From an uncultured Lachnospiraceae bacterium (GTDB lineage: Bacteria > Bacillota > Clostridia > Lachnospirales > Lachnospiraceae): a DNA stretch of 33,060 nucleotides. How positions within the stretch are numbered: position 1 is the first letter of the stretch; each line of letters starts with the position of its first letter. The notes under the pieces were generated by a model. That model was not told where the DNA came from. It did no database searches and saw nothing but the letters and a program-made list of their open reading frames with translations. The stretch is taken from NCBI GenBank assembly GCA_902775895.1, contig CACYNO010000012.1, positions 1 through 33,060 of the forward strand, written 5' to 3'. Positions 2,184 to 7,684 of the stretch are shown piece by piece. A program made the position numbers and the translations under genes.

Positions 2184-2267
2184 ACTCAAGGTTTTTAGAA
2201 TTTTTCCTAAAATATGGAGTGGATCGTACCACTCTTTTTTATTGATAATATTAATACGGAGATAAAA

Positions 2268-3854
2268 ATGAGATTAAAAAAATATTTAGTCGCGGCATCT
2301 ATTGCGGCATGTTCTATGACAGGTATTGCGTCAATGTCTCAGATTGAGACTTTTGCCGCAACGGCACAGACAGAGGCAAAGGCAACATCAAAGACCTCCG
2401 GAAATTCTACAACTAAGACAGATACAAAGACAACTACTACAACAAAGGAAGCTGCAAAGACTGACTCAAAGTCATCTGCAAAGACGACTGATAAAGCTTC
2501 TGCAGATACTTCGACAAAGACTACAGATAAGAAAACGGATACATCTTCGTCGACATCTGCAAAGATTACGGAAAAATCATCAACGAAGTCGACAGAACCT
2601 TCCCCTGCTAAGACAACCGGAAAGTCTTCTGAAAAAGAAACTCCGAAGAAGGTAAATGTTTCAATAGAAGGAAAAACTTTCGAGGTTTCTGCTACCGGTT
2701 ATGCATGGATCTATGTTAACGGATATTACCATTTCGTACAGAACGGAAAGCTCGTAACAGGATGGAAACTATTAACAAAGGCCGAAGGCGAAAAGACAGA
2801 TCATTGGAGTTATTTCGACAAGAAAAACGGAAGGATATACACAGGCTGGAGAAAAATGGGAGCAGCTGAGGGCGAAAAGACCGAGCATTGGAGTTACTTC
2901 GGTAATAACGGTTGGATCCGTACAGGCTGGCAGCTTATGGGAAAAGGAACATCTAATCCCGATGGTAATGCAACAGCTCACTGGAGTTATTTCGGACCCA
3001 ATGGCTGGCTTCGAACAGGATGGCAGGTGATGGGAACTTCATCCAATCCTGATGGAAAAAACAAAGTTCACTGGTCATATTTCGGCGGAAACGGCTGGAT
3101 GGTCAAAGGCTGGTATAAGAACTCTGAAGGACTTCATTACTTCAAGTCAAACGGATGGATGTGTGCGTCCGAGACCGCAAAGATAGACCAGTCGGAATAT
3201 AAGTTTAACAGCCGAGGAATCCTTACAGGGGTAGATCATACAGGCTTTAAGTATATTAATCAGTACAAGACATACGGTTACTATCCCATGTCATGCGGAT
3301 CTTCATCTTCACTAATGGCAATGCAGGCTGCTGGCTATTGCAAGGGTCTTGATACAAAGGGAGAGTACGAGGATTATCTTTCAACCTGGAGAGCAGTCTG
3401 CGGAAAATCTTTCGGTACTAAAGGAGGCGTTGGTGCGTCTCTTCCGAGCAAGGTCGTAAATGTTGTAAAAAATGAAAACACTACCAGAGGAGTTCCTGTA
3501 AAAGGAGTCACAAATGGTTCGCTTAATGCTGATTACTTAAAGGACAGCCTGACGCACGGTCAGACATCCATCGTTATCATTCAGAATTTCAAAGTTTACA
3601 CTCACTGGATCGCGATAACCGGATGGGAAATGAAGGGAAACGAGTTGGTATTCAAGATTGCCGATCCGCTTCCGAGTGACTGTGGCCGTGGCGCCGCTTC
3701 AAGTGTAACAAAGGTTACTCAGGGAAACCTCGGAACTTCAATGAAGAATTCAAAACTTTTCAGTCTTATAGACGCTAAGATAGTTAAAATATTCCACGGC
3801 GGAAGATGCGGAGTGACCTTCGGAAACTACAAATCACTCAATTCATACTATTGA
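2268..3854 (+). CDS. Secreted cell-wall-binding protein with C39-like domain
   Basis: Predicted exported protein of 528 residues. The start at 2268 is chosen because ACGGAGATAAAA precedes it and a signal peptide follows directly (MRLKKYLVAASIAAC..., likely cleaved near residues 29-32); an in-frame ATG at 2214 has no such site. Residues 31-128 form a Thr/Lys/Ser-rich low-complexity linker. Residues 145-320 carry choline-binding-type wall repeats (HWSYF..NGW..TGW). The C-terminal 200 residues resemble papain-like C39-type domains, with candidate catalytic Cys343 (PMSCGSSSS), His446 (YTHWIAITG) and Asp466 (IADPL). It probably sits on the cell surface and may cleave or bind peptides; the substrate is unknown. 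It is a single-gene unit with its own promoter and terminator. Confidence 0.85.
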   Translation: MRLKKYLVAASIAACSMTGIASMSQIETFAATAQTEAKATSKTSGNSTTKTDTKTTTTTKEAAKTDSKSSAKTTDKASADTSTKTTDKKTDTSSSTSAKITEKSSTKSTEPSPAKTTGKSSEKETPKKVNVSIEGKTFEVSATGYAWIYVNGYYHFVQNGKLVTGWKLLTKAEGEKTDHWSYFDKKNGRIYTGWRKMGAAEGEKTEHWSYFGNNGWIRTGWQLMGKGTSNPDGNATAHWSYFGPNGWLRTGWQVMGTSSNPDGKNKVHWSYFGGNGWMVKGWYKNSEGLHYFKSNGWMCASETAKIDQSEYKFNSRGILTGVDHTGFKYINQYKTYGYYPMSCGSSSSLMAMQAAGYCKGLDTKGEYEDYLSTWRAVCGKSFGTKGGVGASLPSKVVNVVKNENTTRGVPVKGVTNGSLNADYLKDSLTHGQTSIVIIQNFKVYTHWIAITGWEMKGNELVFKIADPLPSDCGRGAASSVTKVTQGNLGTSMKNSKLFSLIDAKIVKIFHGGRCGVTFGNYKSLNSYY

Positions 3855-5987: not shown

Positions 5988-6002
5988 TTCAGAACAATAA
6001 GA

Positions 6003-6121
<119 letters not shown>

Positions 6122-6129
6122 GTAGAACT

Positions 6130-6520
6130 ATATTCTTGTAGTGGTGGGACCCCGATATTTGTCGGGGTCTTTTGTTGTGTGCAGATATAAAACGTTGACA
6201 GGGATATGCTTTTGCAGTCTGTACGCTTGCTAAGTTGTTATTGTAGAAAAAGAATATCCAGTCTCGCAAGCGTAAGGCCTGCAAAAAACATACCCTGTCG
6301 GTGTGCAAAATTTGCTCATCAAGCCTTCCGGGTTTTTGCATTTTCCCGACAAGGTATGCTTTTGCAGACCTTACGCTTGCCAAGGAGAATGAACATTTTG
6401 AAATGGAAACAAACCGGCAAGCGTACAGACTGTAAAAGCGTACCCTTGTCGGATAGTTTGAAACATCTTAACAACAAAAGACCGAAAAGATCGGGGATTG
6501 GTCCCACCCTGCAAGAATAT
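6130..6520 (+). repeat. Nested long inverted repeat between riboswitch and ribD
   Basis: Three layers of complementary arms nest inside each other. The outer pair is 6130-6151 with 6500-6520 (about 20 of 22 positions), continued by GTCTTTTGTTGT near 6167-6178 with its complement near 6462-6473. The second pair is 6197-6230 with 6417-6450 (30 of 34). The third is 6266-6299 with 6348-6380 (about 31 of 34). The four inner arms are variants of one roughly 34-nt unit that begins GACA(G/A)GG and ends TACGCTTGC. Together they could fold back as one hairpin of about 390 nt with its apex near 6300-6347. The left arm contains the riboswitch terminator and the right arm ends next to the ribD ribosome binding site. 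Confidence 0.8.
6148..6174 (+). terminator. Riboswitch expression-platform terminator
   Basis: GACCCCGA (6148-6155) and TCGGGGTC (6162-6169) form an 8-bp stem followed by a T-rich run. It lies about 30 nt after the aptamer, as expected for FMN-dependent premature termination. The upstream sequence at 6130-6151 also has a long-range complement near the ribD ribosome binding site. Confidence 0.88.
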
Positions 6521-6532
6521 GAGAGAGAGTAT

Positions 6533-7684
6533 ATGATAGAAGAGAAGTTTATGCGCCGCGCCGTGGAACTTGCAAAGGGCGGGATCGGTGCGGTGGATCC
6601 CAACCCGTTGGTGGGGGCGGTGATCGTAAAGGACAATAAGATAATAGGTGAAGGCTACCATGAACGTTACGGAGGGCTGCATGCCGAGCGGAACGCACTG
6701 GCGTCGGTCGCGGGAACCGATCTTTGCGAAGCCACCGCACACTTCCAAAACCTGAGAGATATCCTGTCAGGTGCTGATATGTACGTAACCTTAGAGCCTT
6801 GTGCCCACCACGGCAAGACCCCGCCCTGCACCGAAGCCATAATAGAAAGCGGTATAAGCAGGGTGATCATCGGGTCAAGGGACCCGAACCCTTTAGTTGC
6901 GGGGAAGGGAGTTCAGCAGCTGGAGGCTGCAGGCATTGAGGTTATACAGGATTTCTGCAGGAAAGAATGCGATGCTTTAAATAAAAAGTTTTTCCATTTT
7001 ATAACCACGGGAAAGCCTTACGTTCTTATGAAGTACGCCATGACGGCGGACGGGAAGATCGCCACAAAGACAGGCGCATCCAAATGGATATCATGTGAAA
7101 AGTCGCGTGAGTACGTACATGAACTAAGAAACGAATACCCGGCGATCCTTGCAGGCATAGGAACGGTACTTGCGGACGACCCTATGCTTACGGCAAGGAT
7201 ACCGGGGGCGAGGAATCCGATGCGTGTGATAACAGACAGCAGCCTGCGTATACCTGCCGGCTGTAATATTTTAAAAACGGCAGCTGACATTCCCACGGTC
7301 ATCATCTCTGCCATGACAGACAAGGAGTTCGGATCATCTGAGAAAAAAGCCATGATCGAAAATATGGGCGCCGAAGTCATTAATCTTCCGGGAGAAGACG
7401 GTCACGTTGATCTTAAAAAAGTTGTAAATTTTCTCGGAGAAAGAAAGATATCAGGTCTTCTCATAGAAGGCGGAGGAGGTGTGAACTACAGCGCTCTTAA
7501 AGCGGGAATAGTAAACGAGGTAAATGTTTTCGTTGCTCCCAAGATATTCGGCGGGGCGGCAAAAACCCCGGTTGGCGGTGAAGGAGTGGAACTTCCGGAT
7601 GAGGCAGTGGGACTTATACTTATTTCATCCGAATTGATGGGAGAGGATGTCCTGTTGAAATACAAGACAGGCAGTAACACATAA
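6533..7684 (+). CDS. ribD: RibD, bifunctional deaminase/reductase
   Basis: A 383-residue enzyme performing the deamination and reduction steps that turn the GTP cyclohydrolase II product into 5-amino-6-ribitylaminouracil phosphate. The N-terminal deaminase domain shows zinc ligands His50 (GLHAERNA, with Glu52 as proton shuttle), Cys90 and Cys99 (EPCAHHGKTPPC). The C-terminal reductase domain begins near residue 160 (KPYVLMKYAMTADGKIA) and contains LIEGGGGV. The start at 6533 is chosen because GAGAGAGAG precedes it and the family N-terminus begins there; the open frame continues upstream to 6206, but that part is translated repeat sequence. First gene of the rib operon, under the FMN riboswitch. 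Confidence 0.95.
   Translation: MIEEKFMRRAVELAKGGIGAVDPNPLVGAVIVKDNKIIGEGYHERYGGLHAERNALASVAGTDLCEATAHFQNLRDILSGADMYVTLEPCAHHGKTPPCTEAIIESGISRVIIGSRDPNPLVAGKGVQQLEAAGIEVIQDFCRKECDALNKKFFHFITTGKPYVLMKYAMTADGKIATKTGASKWISCEKSREYVHELRNEYPAILAGIGTVLADDPMLTARIPGARNPMRVITDSSLRIPAGCNILKTAADIPTVIISAMTDKEFGSSEKKAMIENMGAEVINLPGEDGHVDLKKVVNFLGERKISGLLIEGGGGVNYSALKAGIVNEVNVFVAPKIFGGAAKTPVGGEGVELPDEAVGLILISSELMGEDVLLKYKTGSNT

Follow-up and report, generated by a model that had tools for sequence, protein, structure and literature searches.

Two copies of a dispersed palindromic repeat and an inverted terminator copy between the FMN riboswitch and ribD of an uncultured Lachnospiraceae bacterium

The leader between the FMN riboswitch and ribD in the genome of an uncultured Lachnospiraceae bacterium (assembly GCA_902775895.1, contig CACYNO010000012.1, positions 1 to 33,060, a stretch of 33,060 nucleotides referred to here as the window) contains a foldback of three nested layers. 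Its four inner arms are two oppositely oriented copies, W1 and W2, of an imperfect palindrome of about 105 nt that is dispersed in the genome and is called here the type A repeat. The outer arms consist of the terminator region of the riboswitch and an inverted copy of it. We consider it probable that W1 and W2 were inserted after the terminator and that the outer layer was added by a template switch, the whole being debris rather than a second switch. The foldback would then be explained by the insertion of repeats and, as a separate process, the inverted copying of a terminator, and a new riboswitch mechanism need not be sought.

Architecture of the foldback

The features of the leader are collected in Table 1. 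Compared with its own reverse complement, the region 6130-6520 gave a match over its full length (68%, E 2.7e-25). In the alignment of the outer arms 43 of 54 columns were identical and 9 were gap columns, so that the identity amounts to about 96% of the ungapped columns (43/45). Their local alignment score was 31, against a maximum of 16 for 805 control tiles of the window, and none of 1000 dinucleotide shuffles reached their global score. The foldback described in an earlier note on this DNA is real, and its four inner arms can be recognised, together with the words TCTGTACG and CCTTACG that the note had pointed out. The pairing proposed in that note for the outer arms, 6130-6151 with 6500-6520, was also found, but its limits had been drawn too narrowly, the true extent being 6130-6178 with 6471-6520.

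Table 1. Positions in the window of the leader features, the rib operon genes and the computed paired arms
Feature	Position	Strand	Details
FMN riboswitch aptamer (RF00050)	6001-6121	+	119.4 bits
Left outer arm: riboswitch expression-platform strand, intrinsic terminator and T-tract	6130-6178	+	
Intrinsic terminator hairpin of the FMN riboswitch	~6146-6171		-18.0 kcal/mol
W1, first copy of the type A repeat	6197-6301	-	arms ~6197-6230 and 6266-6301; 35-nt loop; 110.1 bits
Centre between W1 and W2 (44 nt)	6302-6345		weak local hairpin, -8.4 kcal/mol
W2, second copy of the type A repeat	6346-6452	+	inverted relative to W1; 36-nt loop; 108.5 bits
Right outer arm: terminator region 6130-6178 copied in inverted orientation and partly decayed	6471-6520	-	
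ribD, first gene of the rib operon	6533-7684	+	Pfam dCMP_cyt_deam_1 and RibD_C
Riboflavin synthase, ribBA and ribH, after ribD	following ORFs		Lum_binding; DHBP_synthase/GTP_cyclohydro2; DMRL_synthase
Paired arms I1	6197-6239/6408-6450		
Paired arms I3	6266-6286/6360-6380		
Paired arms I4	6166-6178/6471-6483		
Paired arms I5	6130-6141/6509-6520		

The 18-nt spacers that separate the outer from the inner layers were without similarity to each other (427 of 1000 shuffles were as good), and no significant inverted similarity was seen between the two halves of the 44-nt centre (346 of 1000). The loops of W1 and W2 showed marginal similarity (38 of 1000). A search of 6122-6540 against Rfam gave no match at the gathering score, and the nine matches obtained for 6100-6560 at a relaxed threshold were all below the gathering score of their own family.

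Elsewhere in the window, positions 1-2025 comprise the 3' part of a 23S rRNA gene and, after it, seven tRNA genes. An ORF at 2214-3854 encodes choline-binding-type repeats (PF19127), and many sites of the genome have stretches related to these repeats.

The inner layers and their repeat family

The type A unit has arms of about 34 nt and a loop of 35-36 nt of free sequence. Its stem is composed, in order, of an outer part that varies in sequence but stays complementary, a word close to TATGyTTTTTGC/GCAAAAGCATA, a region of asymmetric internal mismatch (GCCTT versus ACAGA) and a TACGCTTGC/GCAAGCGTA stem. Because each hairpin is asymmetric and the two copies lie in inverted orientation, arm 1 matches arm 4 and arm 2 matches arm 3. 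This nested order had been taken as an argument for coordinated evolution or for two successive insertions. Coordinated evolution is not needed, since W1 and W2 resemble unlinked copies at least as much as they resemble each other: the stem identity between W1 and W2 is 0.86, whereas that between W1 and five unlinked copies is 0.94 (C5:51k), 0.93, 0.90, 0.90 and 0.88. In loop similarity the pair ranked 19, 27 and 18 among 45 pairs under three gap costs. The slight advantage of these loops over shuffled sequences may be weak evidence of an old common origin.

In what follows the genome under study is designated G000 and the other genomes of the genus G001-G010, G006 being the sister species. 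A search for the repeat in its own genome, which the earlier note had proposed as a check, revealed alignments of 93-105 nt with 77-80% identity at six unlinked places. One further, weak copy came from a covariance model (C1:191k, 48.5 bits). The copies outside the leader are located at C1:173k, C1:191k, C1:265k, C3:70k, C5:51k, C6:20k and C10:29k, so that nine type A copies were found in G000, and one was found in G006. An ORF of at least 90 codons ends upstream of seven of the eight copies outside the window, its stop codon no more than 20 nt before the start of the copy; such closeness to an upstream stop codon is usual for REP-like repeats. The copy at C5:51k is closely followed by an S10-Clostridia ribosomal protein leader, and a lone stretch resembling a half-arm was seen by eye on G000:C3, after the full copy downstream of argF.

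Model searches of the genus gave convincing repeat copies in two of 11 genomes, with at most the best 150 candidates considered per genome. A BLAST search of 61 relatives found the own genome and G006; a third match, of 26 nt in G003, was on reading taken as chance. With model R1, 299 sampled genomes of the family (best 12 candidates per genome) gave matches in the own genome only, G006 not being among the matches listed. A scan for the right-arm pattern across genomes returned three stretches, one of them probably from the sister species; the other two, in Pedobacter and in a Clostridia MAG, had no R1 match at E 10 and were regarded as chance. A weak match at G006:C73 (24.6 bits) was left out of the counts, and the weak matches of model R3 at G005:C51, G003:C22, G010:C15 and G000:C7:83600 were dropped, the two-arm core being absent by eye.

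In the alignment of the ten copies (nine from G000 and one from G006) 97.2% of 317 stem cells were paired and ten of the 32 pairs showed two-sided changes, values that none of 500 shuffles reached for either measure, the stem model being derived from this same alignment, which favours its pairing. When the stem partners were slid by 1-3 columns, 30-47% remained paired. The loop measured 35-36 nt in all ten aligned copies, and the loop sequences were unrelated and different in every copy. The two-sided changes and the conserved internal loop suggest some constraint or a repair of the stem, and therefore the word debris may be too simple.

A second repeat, type B, is made up of the core ATCCCGGTTCGCG, a loop of 32-34 nt (six copies counted, two recounted by hand) and AGCGAAAAAAGGGG. 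Two copies occur in G000 and five in G006, and four of these seven start no more than 27 nt after the stop of an ORF. Six sites were compared between the two species, with trpE, argF, trmB, uvrB and gdhA named by reading the protein sequence, and at five of them a full copy was present in one species only. The site downstream of argF carries a full copy in G000 and is empty in G006; between trmB and uvrB the full copy of G000 corresponds to a mere half-arm relic in G006; at the 3' end of gdhA the full copy is that of G006, G000 having a reduced hairpin; the ribD leader has its copies in G000 only; and a type B copy separates ribBA from ribH in G006 alone (G006:C59:6562-6684), this interval being 15 nt in the operon of the window. 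The sole full copy shared among the six sites is of type B and lies between the trp T-box terminator and trpE (G000:C7:15k and G006:C128), where 62 of 71 stem columns and 21 of 33 loop columns are identical. The reduced hairpin at the gdhA 3' end, on G000:C4, is terminator-like, and its loop consists of the word ATGCTTTTGC of the repeat; it looks like a repeat that became a terminator through an internal deletion.

These data bear on the possibility that the repeat works in the cell as a structured RNA, such as a hairpin that stabilises mRNA or a site for protein binding, and is kept by selection at many loci including the leader. The covariation of the stem, the conservation of the asymmetric internal loop while the loops drift, and the type B copy, which both species have retained behind the trp T-box terminator, would all agree with such a role. 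The same covariation would, however, be given by stem repair through template switching and by constraint from a recognising enzyme, and the two species differ at five of the six sites, relics being present at two of these. We find this explanation rather unlikely. Against the preferred reading of the repeats as insertions it counts that neither a consistent target-site duplication nor a PF01797 enzyme to move the repeat was found.

Origin of the outer layer and consequences for ribD

Aligned with the terminators native to G006 and G001, the left outer arm scored 19 and 20 and the right outer arm 13.5 and 14.5. Since the left arm scores higher, it is taken as native and the right arm as the inverted copy, which spans 6130-6178 only, the adjoining spacers being unrelated. 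The outer arms had no further match in their own genome at E 0.001, and a composite mobile element that includes them was rejected on this ground. An inverted template switch, judged from this one genome, appears the likeliest origin of the outer layer. Template switching that yields reverse-complement copies is an established mechanism (PMC8794818). An inverted terminator copy was also sought at the trpE site and none was found, so that the template-switch step rests on one locus.

The events may be pictured as follows. The repeats would have entered the interval between terminator and ribD in the lineage of G000 as REP/REPIN-like insertions, and the large quasi-palindrome so formed would have made a replication fork switch template, copying 6178-6130 backwards and producing the third layer. 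A one-step inverted duplication could be envisaged instead, in which the nascent strand snapped back and copied a single repeat and the terminator, giving W2 and the right outer arm together. The mirror-symmetric order of the layers, the outer arms as a true inverted copy and the loops that align slightly better than shuffles are in keeping with this; the last point also leaves some chance of an old duplication of W1 into W2. A single recent event would nevertheless have copied spacers and loops too, whereas the outer arms are nearly identical in their ungapped columns, the spacers and the centre are dissimilar, the loops of W1 and W2 are about as dissimilar as those of unlinked copies, and W1 is nearer to five unlinked copies than to W2. 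For these reasons the one-step duplication is considered unlikely, and insertion of the repeats followed by a template switch is preferred.

Each of the 11 genomes of the genus yielded an FMN element. In the seven genomes in which the leader was readable, ribD being recognised by eye from the start of the protein, the distance from the 3' arm of the terminator to the ribD ATG is 363 nt in G000, and the corresponding interval is 24 nt in G006, 20 in G001, 107 in G003, 96 in G002, 61 in G004 and 16 in G008 (the last counted by eye). In G005, G007, G009 and G010 the switch precedes a putative transporter gene, as judged by eye. Because three congeners, the sister species included, have only 16-24 nt, about 340 nt appear to have been gained in the leader of G000. 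The interval of G002 contains a near-perfect palindrome that recurs at roughly 40 places in that genome (80 matches when both strands are counted, with 40 of the 334 candidates scored). This palindrome, considered as a possible type A repeat, belongs to a different family, with no match in G000 and two half-length matches at one place in G006.

Folding of the leader RNA (6122-6540), as the earlier note had advised, gave -191.1 kcal/mol with z -15.1. For the read-through RNA the full foldback is the optimum at this energy, the local hairpins reaching -140.5 kcal/mol, and positions 6522-6540 are predicted to be mostly unpaired in it (0.75-0.97) and partly paired in the local fold. It might be supposed from these energies, which favour the full foldback by about 50 kcal/mol, that the read-through RNA folds its right arm onto the terminator/antiterminator strand or presents the ribosome site of ribD, in a selected second layer of riboflavin control such as the earlier note had envisaged. 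The comparison of leaders lends no support to this idea: the foldback, and with it the conserved pairing that the note had named as the test of a regulatory role, is absent from all six other readable ribD leaders (G001, G002, G003, G004, G006 and G008). Moreover, everything past about 6176 is made after the termination decision and so, by this reasoning, cannot alter termination of the same transcript, the right copy of the terminator is decayed and the spacers are unmatched. A second control is consequently held to be very improbable. An effect of the foldback on translation of ribD is possible from the modelled fold and is without comparative support.

The termination decision of the riboswitch is probably unchanged, and the hairpins would be carried by the read-through mRNA only, on which they may be at most passive, as a barrier to RNase III or an exonuclease or simply as a longer leader. 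Such a passive effect on RNA processing seems the most likely one. Palindromes between an attenuator terminator and the first gene were met with as the type A pair between the FMN switch and ribD in G000, as the type B copy that lies behind the trp T-box and ahead of trpE in G000 and G006, and as the unrelated one before ribD in G002. It is tempting to speculate that this interval is a preferred and functional home of palindromic repeats, whose hairpins have been domesticated as stabilisers or insulators acting on read-through mRNA only; we think this quite unlikely. If it were true that repeats favour the interval, leader RNAs would have a simple and testable route to gain structure.

Comparison with known systems

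Bacterial MITEs are small, non-coding, dispersed elements with terminal inverted repeats, fixed ends and a target-site duplication. The type A repeat is likewise short, non-coding and dispersed and has terminal inverted repeats, but its ends vary with compensation and no parent insertion sequence was found, PF01797 being the only transposase family searched. A target-site duplication, defined as a direct repeat of at least 3 nt within 4 nt of both borders, was seen in one of ten copies (C10:29k; 5 nt, offset by 1 and 3). The proposal that a MITE-like element is carried in the leader was therefore right in kind, the 34-nt arms being a dispersed palindromic repeat present in two copies, and was not borne out by the test for target-site duplication.

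REPINs are REP doublets that form hairpins and are associated with RAYT transposases (Bertels and Rainey 2011, PMC3116915). As described there they have conserved inverted ends, a spacer of constrained length, a hairpin with compensatory changes and an extragenic location, and are dispersed in one genome, all of which applies to type A. Type A differs from them in its arms of about 34 nt, in the nine copies found in G000, in lacking a GTAG tag and in the absence of Y1_Tnp from G000 and G006. The Y1 transposase (PF01797) was detected in neither of these two genomes and in five of 14 controls; since the assemblies are 95% and 88% complete, a transposase gene may have been missed. In the GTAG- and CGTC-tagged REPs, stems measure 5-13 bp and loops 2-20 bp (Table 1 of PMC3733652), unlike the 32 pairs and 35-nt loop of type A. 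Within 10 nt of either end GTAG/CTAC occurred in none of the ten type A copies and CGTC/GACG in two, where it is part of the stem. Because neither a RAYT nor a tag was found, type A is not filed as a REPIN. The best label seems to be a low-copy REP/REPIN-like family, a small palindromic family in two species of one Lachnospiraceae genus, with no RAYT detected, that was not found described in the open-licence full texts searched. In these texts, a search for palindromic repeats with Lachnospiraceae gave no such family by title, and one for the FMN riboswitch with transposable, insertion or terminator gave nothing.

The outer arms, for their part, are likely to be a natural case in which a replication template switch has duplicated a regulatory hairpin. 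Although the copy spans a loop of about 290 nt and is deduced from one genome, unlike the cases in PMC8794818, it resembles the short-range template-switch mutations described there in that a reverse-complement copy has given rise to a new hairpin stem.
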